Assembly: GCA_029781115.1 (NCBI GenBank)
Contig: JAKOXG010000015.1
Location: forward strand, 1-38,227
From: Candidatus Cloacimonadota bacterium
GTDB taxonomy: Bacteria; Cloacimonadota; Cloacimonadia; Cloacimonadales; Cloacimonadaceae
DNA: 38,227 nt
Direction: 5' to 3'
A program made the translations under genes and the position numbers. Below the pieces are notes generated by a model. It was not told the origin of the DNA. It saw only the letters and a list, made by a program, of their open reading frames with translations, and made no database searches. Positions 622-38,174 of the stretch are shown here, one piece after another (position 1 is the first letter of the stretch; each line of letters starts with the position of its first letter).

Positions 622-1036
622 AGTCGTCAGTAGTCAGTCGTCAGTAGTCAGTCGCTGCGCTTTGTTCAGAGCTGCGCATGCTATCTTCATGGAGGGAGTC
701 CGTGTAGAGAAGGGATTATCCCGCGAAACAGGGCTGAAATGGCTTGGTGTAACTATAACCTTGGTTGTGGGTTAGCGTTGGCTCACAATGAGGAATTGGC
801 TATTGATGCGGTGCAAGCTGGTATTTTACTTTCCGCCGAAGGGTGATAATATTTGCATCTTTTGTATGCCTTCTATTTGCAGGCGATTACGAGATTATTT
901 CTTTGGATTTTTGGCGTCGAAGTGAGATCGTCAGTGTATATAGTGAAGGCATGTTTTTCGGGAGTCGATTTTGCATAAGCGGTGTTGAGCCGGCTGTGCC
1001 GGCCAGGTGTTAGGTTTTAGGTGTTAGATCTGACGC
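622..1036 (+). repeat. Composite dispersed repeat, copy A
   Basis: The modules in order are: an AGTCAGT/CGTCAGT heptamer run (623-654) followed by CGCTGCGC; an unmatched spacer; a body from about 739 to 950; an unmatched stretch; a hairpin GCCGGC-TGT-GCCGGC (989-1003); a TTAGGTG-type heptamer run (1006-1027); and CTGACGC (1030-1036). The body aligns with the reverse complement of about 36465-36676. Exact shared words include TTACGAGATTATTT (887-900 against 36516-36529 reversed) and ATCGTCAGTGTATAT (927-941 against 36475-36489 reversed). The start codons and short reading frames inside are interrupted, so no gene is supported. This repeat fills most of the 650-bp gap between the first gene and malQ. 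Confidence 0.8.
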
Positions 1037-1181: not shown

Positions 1182-2660
1182 TCACAATTCCCACTCGATG
1201 CGCCATTCCCAGTTGCCCAAGGGCGTACCGGGGATGTTCATGCGGGCTTCAGCACCTAAGTTGAGCAGGTCTTGCATGGGGAAGATGCAGGTTTCGCAGC
1301 CGCTATTGATGGCAACTTGCATCATCAGGTCTGCGGCGTTGGTGGCTCGGGTGCCTTCGTCCATCACGTTCTCAAATCTGGGGTCTTCACGGCGGTGCTG
1401 CATGTAGTCAATGAAGTGCCGGTATTCTTGGGACTCGGGATCCAATTCTTCAAACCATTGGCGGGTGGTAGGGTTGTCGTGTGTGCCGGTGTAGATGATG
1501 CGGTTGGCGGGGAAGTGCTCTACATCAGGGTGGCAGTCCTGCCAGCAAAATTGGAGGATGATCATGCCATCGAAGCCCAAGCGGTCGCGAACTTCGCAGA
1601 CATTGGGGGTGAGGATGCCCAAGTCTTCGGCGATAAAGCGTTTGGCGGGATAATCTTGGAGCAGCCTCTCAAATAGTTGTTCGCCGGGGGTGGGGAGCCA
1701 GCTGCCTGCTTTGGCGTCGGTAGGCAGCTGCGGTTCGGAAGTGATGGGATCGACGGGACAGTCTATGCTCCAATGGTTTACGTAGCCGATGAAGTGGTCC
1801 AGCCGCAGCCTCTCTACATAGTCCATGCTGGCGGAGATACGCTGCTCAAAGAGCTGAAAGACTTCATTTTGCTTTTCGTCCCAGCGGTAGATGGGGTTGC
1901 CCCAGAGTTGGCCATCTTCGCTGAAGGCATCGGGTGGCACACCGGCGACTCTTTGGCGGAGGCCGTGTTCGTCCAGATAAAAGAGTTCCGGATGCGCCCA
2001 AAGCTCTGCGCTGTGGTAGGATAGATAGATGGGCAGGTCGCCCCAGAGCTGAATGCCTATCGCCTTTAAACCTTGAGAGAGGGCGGACAGCTGCTCCTGC
2101 AGAATGGCCTGGATGGCGGCTTGGATGCGCATTTGGTGCCCGAAATCATGGAGCAGTTCCTGCCAAAGCTCTTCGCTGTAAGTCCTGTGTTGCAGTGGCC
2201 AGGAGCTCCAATGCGGCGAATCATAAAGGTGATCCAAGAGCACAAAGGCGATGTAGGGTTTGAGCCAAGCGGCGTTGGTTTGGATGAAGGAGTCGAGGTC
2301 GTGCCGTTTCAGATAAGCGTTTGCGGCTTGGTCCAAGAGCTTAGTTTTGACCCTGGTTACTTCTTCGAAGTGGATGCGGTTTGAGGCAGGAATACGAGCA
2401 TTTTTCAAGGCGGGCAGGTCTATCAAGCCGGCTTCATACAAGAGTTCAGGGCTCACCAAAAGCGGATTAAGGGCAAAGGCGGAGATGGGGTTGTAAGGCG
2501 AATTGCCATAACCGGGGTGGTTGAGGGGCAGGATCTGCCAGATTTCATAGCCCTGTTCCTTGATCAAAGTGGCAAAATCCAAGGCAGTTGGGCCAAAATC
2601 GCCAATGCCGAAGTCGCCCGGCAGTGAGCTGATGTGGAGCAGGATACCTTTCTGTTTCAT
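1182..2660 (-). CDS. malQ: 4-alpha-glucanotransferase (amylomaltase, GH77)
   Basis: MalQ transfers alpha-1,4-glucan segments between maltodextrins or to glucose, in cytoplasmic glycogen/maltodextrin metabolism. The 492-residue length is normal for bacterial GH77. Family signatures are complete: LLHISSLPGDFGIGDFG at the N-terminus, QILPLNHPGYGNSPYNP, and the three catalytic acids. These are the nucleophile in RLDHFIGY (D288), the acid/base in IAEDLG (E345) and the transition-state stabiliser in GTHDN (D395). The C-terminus NIPGTPLGNWEWR is also typical. The start MKQKG is chosen because its ATG shares an ATGA with the holA stop; an in-frame ATG nine codons upstream lies inside holA. It is the last gene of the minus-strand operon. 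Its pairing with a replication gene looks like loose operon packing, not a shared pathway. Confidence 0.95.
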   Translation of the reverse strand: MKQKGILLHISSLPGDFGIGDFGPTALDFATLIKEQGYEIWQILPLNHPGYGNSPYNPISAFALNPLLVSPELLYEAGLIDLPALKNARIPASNRIHFEEVTRVKTKLLDQAANAYLKRHDLDSFIQTNAAWLKPYIAFVLLDHLYDSPHWSSWPLQHRTYSEELWQELLHDFGHQMRIQAAIQAILQEQLSALSQGLKAIGIQLWGDLPIYLSYHSAELWAHPELFYLDEHGLRQRVAGVPPDAFSEDGQLWGNPIYRWDEKQNEVFQLFEQRISASMDYVERLRLDHFIGYVNHWSIDCPVDPITSEPQLPTDAKAGSWLPTPGEQLFERLLQDYPAKRFIAEDLGILTPNVCEVRDRLGFDGMIILQFCWQDCHPDVEHFPANRIIYTGTHDNPTTRQWFEELDPESQEYRHFIDYMQHRREDPRFENVMDEGTRATNAADLMMQVAINSGCETCIFPMQDLLNLGAEARMNIPGTPLGNWEWRIEWEL

Positions 2661-3664
2661 TTGCAGTCCATGATCCTGATGGCGCAAAGCTCCAGCAGTG
2701 TGTGGGGCGTGCTCATGCTGAGTTTGAACTGGCTGTCTGTTTCCAGCAGGATCCGCATGATGCAGCGCATCTGCTTGAGGGTGTAGCTCTTGGAGAATTG
2801 GATAAACTCTTGCCTTTGAGTGGGGAAGAGGTCGCCCAGGTGCTTGTTTGCGATTTCGGTGTCGCTGATTTTATTGGCTTTGAGGGCCAAGATGTTGTGG
2901 ATGGAGTTGTAGAATTTGTTGAATTGGAAAAAGACCTGCAGGCCTTCCCAGTCGGAATCCAGCATCCTGTTGATGGTCTTGAGGCATTCGGGCAGGTCGC
3001 GTCTGCCCAGAGCTCTGTAAAAGTCAATCATGGTGCCCACTCTGGAGGTGCCCAAGCTGCGTTCCACGTCTTTTGCACTCACGCTGTAGCGGTCTTTGGA
3101 CATCAGCAGCAGCTTCTCCAGCTCGTTGTAGGCGATGGCATAATCCAGTTCCACCCTTGCCAGAAAGGCACTTCGGGCGGAGGCGTCCATCTGCTTGCCT
3201 TTTTGTTTGAGGACAAAGTCCAGCCACTTTTGGAGGTCGTAATGGCTGCGGGGCGGGTCGCAGACTATCTCCAGAGAGCTTTGACGCACTGCTTTCCAGA
3301 CACTGAGGCGTTTATCTATCTTACTGGCGTGAAGCACCAGGCTTTGGATCTCGGATGTGTCTTTGAAATAGGCGGTTAGAGCTTGTTGGTCTGCAGCTTT
3401 CAGCATTTCAGCGTTGCGGATCACGATCAGCTTGCTGCTGGCAAAGATGGAGTAGGTATCCAGCACCTCGCCGAGCTCATTCCTCTGGATGTCATCGCCA
3501 TAAAGGTTGATGGTTTCGATGTCTTGCTGTTGTTTGAGTTCGGATTGGATTATCCTCAGCACATAGTCGCTCTGCCAGGCGTCCGTGCCCAGCAGGAGGT
3601 AGTTTTGCCCCAAGCTCACCATCTGAGGCTTGAAGGAAAGTGCGTCTAAGCTGCCTTTGTTCAT
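2657..3664 (-). CDS. holA: DNA polymerase III, delta subunit
   Basis: Delta is the clamp-loader subunit that opens the beta sliding clamp. The 335-residue protein has the expected N-terminal opening (NYLLLGTDAWQSDYVLRII), a conserved strand region (FASSKLIVIRNAEML near residue 75-90) and the mid-region with LQKWLDFVLKQKG, as in HolA/YqeN proteins. It lacks an intact Walker A, as delta normally does. The C-terminal helical collar domain (LLLETDSQFKLSMS... LLELCAIRIMD) is present. It starts 4 bases downstream of the uppP stop and overlaps malQ by 4 bases, so it is translationally packed in the operon. Identification rests on overall pattern rather than a catalytic motif. Confidence 0.88.
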   Translation of the reverse strand: MNKGSLDALSFKPQMVSLGQNYLLLGTDAWQSDYVLRIIQSELKQQQDIETINLYGDDIQRNELGEVLDTYSIFASSKLIVIRNAEMLKAADQQALTAYFKDTSEIQSLVLHASKIDKRLSVWKAVRQSSLEIVCDPPRSHYDLQKWLDFVLKQKGKQMDASARSAFLARVELDYAIAYNELEKLLLMSKDRYSVSAKDVERSLGTSRVGTMIDFYRALGRRDLPECLKTINRMLDSDWEGLQVFFQFNKFYNSIHNILALKANKISDTEIANKHLGDLFPTQRQEFIQFSKSYTLKQMRCIMRILLETDSQFKLSMSTPHTLLELCAIRIMDCK

Positions 3665-34325: not shown

Positions 34326-34952
34326 ATGTTTACAGGAATTATCGAAGCCATCAGCCCCATCCTCTCGCTCAAGGATCGGGGTGGCAAACGCTACATCAAA
34401 CTCCAGCGTCCCCAGAGCTTTGAACACATCAAAGAGGGCAACAGCATCGCTTGCGACGGCATCTGTCTCACCGTGATCAGCTTTGATGCAGACAGCTTTG
34501 AGGTGGAATTGATGGCGGAGACTCTTAAGAAAAGCGCTGCGTCAAGCTGGAAGATCGGCTCCAAGATCAATCTGGAGCGTGCCCTGCGAGTGGGGGACAG
34601 GCTGGACGGGCATTGGGTGCAAGGCCACGTGGACAGCGTCCTCACCCTCAAGCAGATCAGAACGATAGACCAAACGCCTTACTATTACTTTTCCTACCCC
34701 AGAGAGGACGCCGAGCTCCTGGTGCCGCAGGGTTCCATCTGCCTCAATGGCGTAAGTCTCACGCTTGCTGAACTCAAGCCCGGCAGCTTTGCCGTCGCTT
34801 TGATCGGCCATACGCTGCAGAATTCCAATCTCAGCCTGCTTTCCGTGGGTGCCAAAGTCAATGTGGAATACGACGTCCTGGGTAAATACATCCTGCGCAA
34901 ACAGCAGCTCAAGCCCATCTCCAAGGAGTGGCTACATGAACAAGGTTTTTAA
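34326..34952 (+). CDS. ribE: Riboflavin synthase, alpha subunit
   Basis: The enzyme dismutates two lumazine molecules into riboflavin. Two tandem lumazine-binding domains are seen. The first (about 1-95) begins MFTGIIE, with SIACDGICLTV and VGDRLDGHWVQGHVDS. The second (about 96-200) has SICLNGVSLTLAEL and GHTLQNSNLS. The 208-residue length is normal. It starts 6 bases after recR; other rib genes are not adjacent and no FMN riboswitch is upstream, so its expression is probably set by the operon. Confidence 0.96.
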   Translation: MFTGIIEAISPILSLKDRGGKRYIKLQRPQSFEHIKEGNSIACDGICLTVISFDADSFEVELMAETLKKSAASSWKIGSKINLERALRVGDRLDGHWVQGHVDSVLTLKQIRTIDQTPYYYFSYPREDAELLVPQGSICLNGVSLTLAELKPGSFAVALIGHTLQNSNLSLLSVGAKVNVEYDVLGKYILRKQQLKPISKEWLHEQGF

Positions 34953-36222
34953 GCTTTGCCTCCTGCTTGTTGTCGTGCTCTTTCTGGCAAGCTGTGGCAG
35001 CAAGAAGAGCCCCACCGGCGGCCCTGTCGACCTGGAAAAACCGGAAGTGCTGAGCATCATCCCCGAGGAATACAGCCAACTCACCAGCGAAATCGAGATC
35101 ACCTTCTCCAAGGCGATGGACAAGCAGAGCTTTACCGAAGGCATCTACTTTCACCCGCCCATCATCAACAAGAAGATCAGCTACAGCGGCAGGACCTTGA
35201 ACATCAAGATCTTGGAGCCGCTACAGCCTGACTGCATCTACCACCTCACCTTGGGCAGCGGCATCAAGGATACCCGCTCAAACTCCATGAACAAGCCCAA
35301 CAGCTTTGTATTCTTGAGTGGAAAGCCAATCCAAAACCGCATCAGCGGCCAAGTGACCTATGAAAAGGCCAGCGACGCGGGCAAACCACTCACACTGACT
35401 CTCTTCTCTGCAGATTCTCTCCTGGTTTTGACCAAAGAGTTCAGCGGCAGCAGTTACCTCATTGATGCGCTCAACCCCGCCGAATACCTGATGCGTGCCT
35501 ATCAAGACCTGGATCTCAATAGTCGCTACGACTACGGTAAAGAGCCCTTCTTTGAACAATTGGTAGACGTTCGCAAAAGCAGAAGCTTCGACATCAACAT
35601 GACCTATGCAGACAGCAGCAGAGCGGTGATCCGCAGCGTTCGCCCCATCAGCAACACCGAGCTGGAAGTGCGGCTTTCCAAGACTCCTGTTTCCCTGGGT
35701 CAGATGAGTGCCACCGCTTCCGATGGCAGCAGCCTCGCCATCAGATACAGCGAACTCGCTCAGAATGTGCTCACCCTCATCACCGCCGCGCAAGACACGC
35801 TGCAATATCGGCTCACCATCAAAGACCTCATGGATAGCAAAGGCAACCACAACCCCGAGAGCAGCCTGGCCTATGCAGGTAGCAGTGTGCCGGATACCCA
35901 AAAGCCCACCATTCTTAGCTCCACGCCCCGCAATGGCACCAGCGTCAACAGCCTGGAACCGGTTCTGGAGCTGCGCTTTGACGAGATCATCCCCGAGCAG
36001 CACCTCAAGCTCAGACTGATTGCCACCGAATCCAACAAGGAAGTCCCGATAAAGATCCTCAAAGCCAACTCCAAAACCTGCAGGATCAAACCCGCCACCC
36101 CTCTGACCAACTACCGCAGCTATACCCTGATCATCCTGGCGGAAACCAGCGACAGCGCCGGCAATACCTTTGAGAAAGAACACAAGATCAGCTTTATGCC
36201 GTTGTTAGGTGTTAGGTCTTAG
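34936..36222 (+). CDS. Lipoprotein with bacterial Ig-like (Big_5/SbsA-type) domains
   Basis: A 428-residue lipoprotein. The signal ends in a lipobox, LASC with C20, followed by Gly, which favours the outer membrane. An Ig-like module runs from about 33 to 135 (PEVLSIIPEEYSQLTSEIEI, then TFSKAMDKQSFTEGIYFHPP), as in the Big_5/SbsA domain. A second such module lies near the C-terminus (KPTILSSTPRNGTSVNSLEP). Between them is a Gly/Ser-poor region with QDLDLNSRYDYGKEP. ATG 34936 has AAGGAG 7 bases upstream and overlaps ribE by 17 bases. The last residues LLGVRS and the TAG stop come from the heptamer repeat that follows, so the true end was probably set when the repeat arrived. Confidence 0.85.
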   Translation: MNKVFKLCLLLVVVLFLASCGSKKSPTGGPVDLEKPEVLSIIPEEYSQLTSEIEITFSKAMDKQSFTEGIYFHPPIINKKISYSGRTLNIKILEPLQPDCIYHLTLGSGIKDTRSNSMNKPNSFVFLSGKPIQNRISGQVTYEKASDAGKPLTLTLFSADSLLVLTKEFSGSSYLIDALNPAEYLMRAYQDLDLNSRYDYGKEPFFEQLVDVRKSRSFDINMTYADSSRAVIRSVRPISNTELEVRLSKTPVSLGQMSATASDGSSLAIRYSELAQNVLTLITAAQDTLQYRLTIKDLMDSKGNHNPESSLAYAGSSVPDTQKPTILSSTPRNGTSVNSLEPVLELRFDEIIPEQHLKLRLIATESNKEVPIKILKANSKTCRIKPATPLTNYRSYTLIILAETSDSAGNTFEKEHKISFMPLLGVRS

Positions 36223-36414: not shown

Positions 36415-36801
36415 GCGTCAGCTCTAACACCTAAAACCTAACACCTAACACCTGGCCGAAGGCCTCCCTCTATAATATACACTGACGATGTTGCTGAGAC
36501 CTCGAAAACCCAAAAAAATAATCTCGTAAGCCACTGACCGGTATGGCTATACAAAAGGTGTAAATATTTATCCCATTCCGCGTAAATAAAAATACCCCGA
36601 GAGCCGCTTCAGAAGCCACTTTCCTTTTTACTGCATCGCTAACATTTACCCACACCCACAGTTACAACCAATCCATCAGTGGACATCCGTGTGTATCCGT
36701 GGAAGAATAAAAAGCCCAGAGGTGCAGATTGTACAAAAAGCAAGTGTATCCCTGAAACCAGCGTCAGCGACTGACTACTGACGACTAACCACTGACTACT
36801 G
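36415..36801 (-). repeat. Composite dispersed repeat, copy B (inverted relative to copy A)
   Basis: Read on the minus strand from 36801 down the order is: AGTCAGT/CGTCAGT-type heptamers (about 36801-36769), CGCTGACGC (36769-36761), a spacer, a body (about 36676-36465), a hairpin GGCC-TTC-GGCC (36464-36454), TTAGGTG-type heptamers (36451-36424) and GCTGACGC (36422-36415). The order and orientation match copy A at 622-1036. The body shares exact 14- and 15-base words and about two thirds identity by eye over the best 69 bases. A 61-codon minus-strand frame inside it (36470-36655) is not open in copy A, so I do not call it a gene. Confidence 0.8.
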
Positions 36802-36843
36802 CAGCTTGCTGCCCTTTCGTGTTAATTCGTGTAATTCGTGGAA
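36683..36843 (+). repeat. Pair of degenerate CGTGT...CGTGG short repeats
   Basis: ACATCCGTGTGTATCCGTGG (36684-36703) and TTCGTGTTAATTCGTGTAAT (36816-36835, continuing TCGTGG to 36841) are both built of 9-11-base units ending CGTGT or CGTGG. Both are followed by AAGAATAAAAAGC-like sequence (GAAGAATAAAAAGC and GAAGAAAAAGAAAGC). They lie about 135 bases apart as direct repeats and flank the AGTCAGT heptamers of copy B. Confidence 0.65.
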
Positions 36844-37040
36844 GAAAAAGAAAGCTGTTTTAATCTCGCTCCCCACAGCAGAGCACGCACATCCCCACAA
36901 CGCTGACGACGTAGCAGTATTGAAATCCATATTCGATTTTAGAAGCCTGAAAGTCGAATAAAGTATTTGACAGGTAAACGCCCTCGCAAAACAATGAGTC
37001 CAACGTGCTCTGCACAATACTATAACCGAGGACTCAGGAG
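36844..37040 (+). promoter_or_regulatory. Upstream region and promoter of the fic gene
   Basis: TTGACA at 36967-36972, a 17-base spacer and AACAAT at 36990-36995 (four of six matching). Transcription would start near 37002. GAGG (37028-37031) gives the better-spaced ribosome binding site for the ATG at 37041; an AGGAG directly abuts the ATG. The rest of this stretch shows no gene. Confidence 0.55.
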
Positions 37041-38174
37041 ATGAAGTTTGAAGATTTCACATCAGGTGTTTACCGAAACCAGTATCAATACAAGAGCTTC
37101 TTGCCCGCCACGATTAACCATGAGTGGACTTGGGATGACCCAAGGATCAACGTGTTGCTGGAAAAGGCGACCAAAGCATTGGGAGAGTTGAATGCTTTTT
37201 CCTTGATCGTGCCTGATGTTGATTTATTCATCCACATGCACGTCATCAAAGAGGCCAATACCTCCAGCAGGATTGAGGGGACAAAGACCGAAATAGATGA
37301 CGTTATCAAAGGAGTTGATTCAATTGAGCCGGAAAAAAGGGACGATTGGCAGGAGGTGCAGAACTACGTTCAGGCCATGAATGAAGCGATTCAGCAACTG
37401 GAGACTTTGCCCCTTTCTTTAAGACTGATCCGGCGCACCCATGAAATCCTGATGACCAGCGTGCGGGGCGAGCACAAAGCTCCAGGAGAGTTTAGAAACA
37501 GTCAAAACTGGATCGGGGGTTCTTCCTTGGCAGATGCTGCCTACATCCCTCCTCATGTCAGTGATCTGCCGGCTTTGCTGGACGATTTTGAGAGGTTCCT
37601 GCACAATGATAAGATATCAGTGCCGCATCTGATCAAATGTGCCTTGGCTCATTATCAGTTTGAGACTATCCATCCCTTCTTGGATGGCAATGGTCGTATC
37701 GGCAGGCTCCTTATTACCCTATATTTGGTCAGTAACAATCTGCTGCTCAAGCCCACTCTCTATCTTTCGGATTTCTTTGAAAAACATAGAGATCAGTATT
37801 ATGACTCGCTTTCCCGAGTTAGGATTTCAAATGACATTGGTCAGTGGGTGCGGTTTTTCCTGCAAGCCGTCATTGACACATCAGAAAAAGGAAAAAAGAC
37901 ATTTGAAAGCATCTTGGATCTGCACAGGAAAACAGAAGGCAAACTGGTGAAGCTTGGCAGAAGAGCGGAGAACGCCCGCAAGCTGTTGATGCACCTGTAC
38001 AAGTCGCCTACGATAACAATCAACGAAGTCCAAGACCTTCTGAATCTTAGTTATGCTCCTGCTAATAATCTTGTTAAGAGCCTCATGGAAATGAAAATCT
38101 TGCAGGAGGCTACAGGGGGGCCCAGAAATCGTATCTTCATATTTAGTGACTATATCAATACTTTTGGTAAGTAA
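37041..38174 (+). CDS. Fic-family protein (class II, autoinhibited AMPylator type) with C-terminal winged helix
   Basis: A 377-residue protein. Fic enzymes transfer a nucleotide monophosphate, usually AMP, to hydroxyl side chains of target proteins. The catalytic motif HPFLDGNGRIGR (H211 to R222) is intact. The inhibitory helix motif SSRIEGT (S75 or S76 to G80, with E79) lies N-terminal to the Fic core, which defines class II; its Glu normally blocks ATP. The flap region WIGGSSLADAAYIPP and the N-terminal Fic_N-like domain are typical. Residues about 305-377 form a winged-helix-like C-terminus (TINEVQDLLNLSYAPANNLVKSL), often linked to autoregulation. No partner antitoxin gene is present, as expected for class II. 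It has its own promoter and sits beside a repeat island, possibly mobile. Confidence 0.93.
   Translation: MKFEDFTSGVYRNQYQYKSFLPATINHEWTWDDPRINVLLEKATKALGELNAFSLIVPDVDLFIHMHVIKEANTSSRIEGTKTEIDDVIKGVDSIEPEKRDDWQEVQNYVQAMNEAIQQLETLPLSLRLIRRTHEILMTSVRGEHKAPGEFRNSQNWIGGSSLADAAYIPPHVSDLPALLDDFERFLHNDKISVPHLIKCALAHYQFETIHPFLDGNGRIGRLLITLYLVSNNLLLKPTLYLSDFFEKHRDQYYDSLSRVRISNDIGQWVRFFLQAVIDTSEKGKKTFESILDLHRKTEGKLVKLGRRAENARKLLMHLYKSPTITINEVQDLLNLSYAPANNLVKSLMEMKILQEATGGPRNRIFIFSDYINTFGK

Follow-up and report, generated by a model that had tools for sequence, protein, structure and literature searches.

What is repeated at the two ends of this stretch of DNA, and what does it do there? The window analysed is the whole of contig C12, 38,227 bases of a 2.25-Mb Cloacimonadota assembly (genome G000), and two inverted copies, A and B, of a repeat lie near its ends. 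The original prediction described them as a composite element with heptamers, body and hairpin in a fixed order. The matter touches on a wider open question, that of how anti-phage genes come to be stably housed in bacterial chromosomes. All modules of both copies were recovered where they had been predicted, and the features of the window are as follows.

622-652, ~735-950, 989-1003, 1005-1027 and 1030-1036, plus strand: heptamers, body, hairpin, TTAGGTG heptamers and CTGACGC of copy A
622..660, plus strand: AGTCAGT-type heptamers with CGCTGCGC, 5′ of copy A, a separate repeat
709..798, plus strand: 5′ extension of copy A, present in a minority of copies
820..949, plus strand: element proper of copy A, four blocks from GGTATTTTAC to AGTGAAGG, delimited by alignment of 23 own-genome copies (model hit C12:801-965)
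927..949, plus strand: 3′ core (block 4) of copy A, ATCGTCAGTGTATATAGTGAAGG, from a pattern search over the genus
989..1036, plus strand: hairpin (GCCGGC...GCCGGC), TTAGGTG heptamers and CTGACGC 3′ of copy A, a separate abutting repeat
1182..2687, minus strand: 4-alpha-glucanotransferase (MalQ) core gene on the 3′ side of copy A, syntenic with locus L135 of the congener G002, where it still adjoins an element
34849..36222, plus strand: conserved gene on the 3′ side of copy B, still adjoining an element in G002 (L140)
36801-36415, minus strand: copy B, with the same set of modules as copy A
36415..36464, minus strand: hairpin (GGCCTTCGGCC), heptamers and CTGACGC 3′ of copy B, a separate repeat
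36467..36596, minus strand: element proper of copy B, from alignment with copy A and model search, including model R2 (see below)
36467..36489, minus strand: 3′ core of copy B, ATCGTCAGTGTATATTATAGAGG, from the genus pattern search
37041..38174, plus strand: Fic/DOC protein (Pfam Fic_N and Fic), accessory gene on the 5′ side of copy B

The bodies of A and B align with 75.8% identity over 124 bp (E = 1e-15 in about 300 kb), and the match is therefore not due to chance. The fixed order of all modules did not hold up among the 32 full-length copies in the genome: AGTCAGT heptamers occur on the 5′ side of copies A and B only, TTAGGTG heptamers on the 3′ side of about 13, and heptamer and hairpin modules are found without the body at dozens of other genomic places. 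The unit is the body, to the exclusion of the composite; heptamers and hairpins are separate repeats that abut it, and the hairpins 3′ of the body are part of the adjacent repeat. The 5′ extension is common to copy A, its C13 duplicate, L010 a and b, L021, partly L018, L024, L026 and copy B.

Further repeats were observed in these intergenic regions. An intergenic repeat of about 95 bp (CCTCCCGGGAAAAACCCGAGTATCTCCACGG...), seen at L082:3961-4124 and at more than 40 places each in G000 and the congener G005, often adjoins the element. A short hairpin repeat, GGTCGCTATGGCAAGCGACCATACAG, is present at many loci (for example L019 760-2026), and in G002 and G005 it is often flush with the element’s 5′ edge. 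Repeats of the CACGAATTACACGAATTAACACGAA type lie between genes at 36810-36850 of the window and at 16490-16830 of L342.

The element proper spans about 130 bp and comprises, in the aligned copies, four conserved blocks at nearly fixed spacing: GGTATTTTACTTTCC; AATATTTGACC..TTTTGTAT; CAGGCGGTTACGAGATTATTTTTTTGG; and the core, GATCGTCAGTGTATATWRTRRAGG. Fifteen core columns, ATCGTCAGTGTATAT, are invariant or nearly so in 23 copies from G000, and the core ends in a −10-like TATWRT, with an invariant A and final T, followed by RRAGGG. The blocks are gap-free in nearly all copies, the spacers vary freely in sequence and hardly at all in length, and the distance from TTTGTAT to the core is 76-80 bp in most copies of both subfamilies. 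No reading frame is shared across copies. The open frame of copy A has stops in many other copies and is shifted by indels between species; a protein-coding body was thus rejected, in agreement with the predicted lack of an open frame. The constant length and the blocks would also suit a small RNA gene or structured RNA, a reading made highly improbable by the lack of any consensus fold, compensatory pairs or covariation in the element alignments, by single-copy folds that are near random (z from −0.7 to 0.6 for G000 copies and −1.65 for one G003 copy) and by the absence of an Rfam match in the window, and a structured RNA family was rejected as a candidate. The element is absent from Rfam, in line with the earlier remark that it was not recognised from named families.

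A search of the genome and its relatives, as the original prediction had proposed, found the body at 36 places in G000, with 32 full-length or strong copies in the model search. There are about 30 copies each in G002 and G005; a diverged version, GCCACAATAT..TCAAATGTTATA.ACTTTTTGTATCGGCATA..TGAATGGTATT..GCGTTTCCCTATGTATTATAGAGG, is found in G003 (21 near-full copies) and in G004 (17). Model R2, for which only the G003 and G004 copies were used, retrieves copy B in G000 with E = 4.5e-6, and the two versions are therefore homologous; 44 other genomes of the family gave no match in the R2 search. A strict pattern applied to 84,980 species genomes matched only in Cloacimonadota, a search of viral contigs, phages and plasmids returned no match, and nothing relevant was found in the literature on Cloacimonadota intergenic repeats. 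The element family is real, dispersed, lineage-specific and, as far as the literature searched shows, previously undescribed. At seven G002 loci (L228, L229, L230, L232, L233, L235 and L236) the 3′ core is preceded by other bodies or by none, and a further module (CCAGCTACCGCTGG...) is found ahead of the core in G002 and ahead of the element in G005.

Within the core, the variable base of TCGTCAG[N]GTATAT differs by species, being T in 31 of 32 copies in G000, G in 17 of 19 in G002 and A in 18 of 19 in G005. Cross-species pairs set by flanking genes share the same orientation in 27 of 27 cases (one pair is weak), and constrained columns at shared loci are usually 85-100% identical. Between G000 and G002, spacers at shared loci have reached the non-orthologous level (0.34 vs 0.32), with most constrained columns kept; in ten G003/G004 pairs the constrained columns are 92.5% and the variable columns 72% identical, beside flanks at about 95%. 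The retention of blocks at shared loci while their spacers are saturated argues that individual copies are under selection for their blocks; together with the species-specific base, it also suggests a putative partner molecule that would have changed along with the core.

These observations bear on the predicted non-autonomous mobile element, that is, a MITE-like element that dispersed before the species diverged and later became fixed. The dispersed intergenic copies and the lineage-specific consensus are consistent with such an origin, as are some species-specific sites, such as the L082 locus, where the element is present in G000 and G002 and G005 has unrelated filler without it. Even so, it is very unlikely. 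No terminal inverted repeat joins the ends of copy A or B, and sharp ends, target duplications and empty sites, which the original prediction had suggested looking for, were sought with no clean example found. Old copies at shared loci keep their blocks though the spacers are saturated, they keep their orientation as well, and no close autonomous relative was found in viruses, phages or plasmids. An active MITE was rejected for lack of terminal inverted repeats and because shared loci keep orientation. Of the phrase “mobile or structural element”, the second half fits better, given the conserved blocks, the saturated spacers and the same loci and orientation across species.

The element lies at a border between two kinds of DNA. 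Its 3′ flank is a conserved core gene of ordinary function, and its 5′ flank is often different even between sister species; by our own tally of cross-species pairs, only the 3′ flank is conserved in 20, only the 5′ flank in 5 and both in 12. Homology between G003 and G004 ends at or inside the element’s 5′ edge in 5 of 11 pairs, with one further indel, and ends within 1 kb on the 3′ side in none of the 11. The sister genome lacks an orthologue for seven of the nine 5′-side segments tested. G004 appears to hold an insert of at least 3.7 kb at the L289/L313 locus, some 40-60 bp from the element on its 5′ side, although the two halves of this locus are on different contigs, and at the L020/L144 locus synteny returns 2.6-3.4 kb upstream, with unrelated genes between. 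Cargo orientation is not fixed.

A possible reading, if on balance a somewhat unlikely one, and the main rival to the one preferred below, is that of a cis-acting functional DNA site, regulatory, insulating or bound by a nucleoid protein, which selection keeps beside particular core genes; 5′ breaks and insertions would then pile up because the element and its core gene form a unit that is not to be split. Block-level constraint at orthologous loci, the co-inheritance of element and 3′ gene and the −10-like end of the core with its RRAGGG agree with this. It is harder to reconcile with 3′ genes that point either way relative to the element (about 14 in the same direction and 19 opposite) and share no function, for which reason a regulon of functionally linked genes was rejected. 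Nor is a −35 box apparent, and in several G003/G004 copies TTGACA motifs lie between the element and the 3′ gene.

Neighbours have also been reassorted between elements. For example, L137 combines the 5′ flank of L022 with the 3′ flank of L023, L118 combines the 5′ flank of copy B with the 3′ flank of L022, and L078 is a further case; the homologue of the copy B Fic/DOC gene in G005 accordingly lies 5′ of a different element, L118. This reassortment of flanks suggests that recombination may have occurred at or near the elements. The breakpoints vary, falling at the 5′ edge, in mid-body or near the core, and so also fit ordinary homologous recombination. The elements might then be passive repeats with no function of their own, their core homogenised and their neighbours shuffled by homologous recombination and gene conversion. 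That account draws on the reassorted neighbours, on breakpoints inside the element and on the many other repeats clustered at the same places; it is distinctly unlikely given the 5′/3′ asymmetry and the spacers, which are not homogenised within a genome (mean identity at variable columns about 0.42) while the blocks are fixed, a pattern that conversion alone does not predict.

The contig ends C12:1-1036 and C13:116455-117638 share about 98% identity over a secretion-tail gene and the element and have different 3′ flanks. In this pair the element is kept with its 5′ neighbour, and the shared ends may represent either a duplication or an alternative arrangement.

The variable 5′ DNA includes type I restriction-modification, PD-T4-3 and PDC-M30A systems, a DarG-like macrodomain protein, OLD-like ATPases and toxin-antitoxin genes. 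The 89 proteins on the 5′ side matched 204 PADLOC families (SoFic among them) and the 107 on the 3′ side matched 18, counts that refer to families, of which a single protein may match many. Control loci with heptamer repeats and no element, however, matched 75 PADLOC families with 62 proteins, so that nearness to defence genes is not specific to the element. Repeat-rich gaps throughout the G000 genome commonly hold defence genes, and what is particular to the element is direction only, with accessory DNA on one side and core genes on the other. Variable defence genes do occupy a fixed position beside core genes here, the feature of a defence-island hotspot. Two elements have a CRISPR-like array some hundreds of bases away on their 5′ side, with 39 repeats at L026 (G000 C3, 4676-7439) and 6 repeats at L119 (G005 C34, 3851-4204).

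The explanation preferred here, at a probability of roughly 0.42, is that proteins bind the element and that it marks where core genes give way to accessory insertion zones, perhaps also mediating the entry or swapping of DNA on the 5′ side. A trans-acting DNA-binding complex would read the blocks and would have co-evolved with the core; the element would tolerate the arrival or exchange of 5′ DNA, or take part in it, and could be a docking or recombination site for accessory genes. Counting against this explanation are the element-free control loci near defence genes, the varied breakpoints, the C12/C13 pair, the unfixed orientation of the cargo and the failure to find a dedicated integrase. 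A more far-reaching proposal, which is doubtful, is a chromosome-wide docking system of some 30 non-coding attachment sites per genome, in which the core would act as a species-specific key and defence modules would be inserted and exchanged on the 5′ side by recombination machinery yet to be recognised. If the preferred explanation is true, a non-coding marker of the core side at about 30 loci, its core changing in step across the copies of a species, would offer a testable handle, and the element would serve to flag accessory zones by sequence in a phylum of which few members have been cultured.

Several known systems invite comparison. ERIC/IRU and BOX are known intergenic repeats, and the present element resembles them in its length of about 130 bp, its tens of dispersed intergenic copies, its lack of an open frame and its restriction to one lineage. 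It differs in having no central palindrome or conserved fold, and in possessing a directional 3′ core with a species-specific base and a directional border between core and accessory DNA. Integron attC sites are marked by RYYYAAC/GTTRRRY boxes, a foldable single strand and an integron integrase. A likeness to attC sites and CALINs exists only in the manner of working, as repeated non-coding sites beside exchangeable, often defensive genes. The element is scattered singly, the orientation of genes beside it is not fixed, and attC was rejected because the conserved columns contain no RYYYAAC/GTTRRRY boxes and there is no foldable strand. No dedicated integrase or integrase expansion was found, each genome having only 1-3 tyrosine-recombinase matches.

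Sites of the dif/Xer type have two partly symmetrical 11-bp arms around an ATAA-N6-TTATG core. Like these and cer-type sites, the element has a core of about 28 bp beside a longer accessory region, and the G000 core has TGTATATTAT in common with E. coli dif. Unlike dif, its core has no left arm, and about 10 of 23 copies lack TTAT. A dif-like site separate from the element, CGGATAA-TGCACG-TTATGTAAA, exists in the genus, and a Xer/dif site was rejected on the absent left arm and on this separate site in each genome. The probable chromosomal dif of G000 lies at C8:159180-159201 (CGGATAATGCACGTTATGTCAA), and each of the other five congeners has a closely similar site. A promoter for a phage-type single-subunit RNA polymerase found no support, the genome giving no PF00940 match, though control genomes were silent too. 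A replication-polar signal of the Ter or KOPS type was rejected, since elements on one and the same contig point in both directions.

Heptamer repeats such as TAACTGA have been reported in Beggiatoaceae (PMC4679880), and AGTCAGT and TTAGGTG are intergenic heptamer direct repeats of the same kind; here, by comparison, the heptamers lie outside the element and occur without it. The defence-island hotspots of E. coli are set by flanking core genes, tRNAs and known mobile elements (PMC10121019). They share with the present loci the swapping of diverse defence genes at fixed positions beside core genes; what sets the Cloacimonadota loci apart is that a shared non-coding element recurs at about 30 of them.
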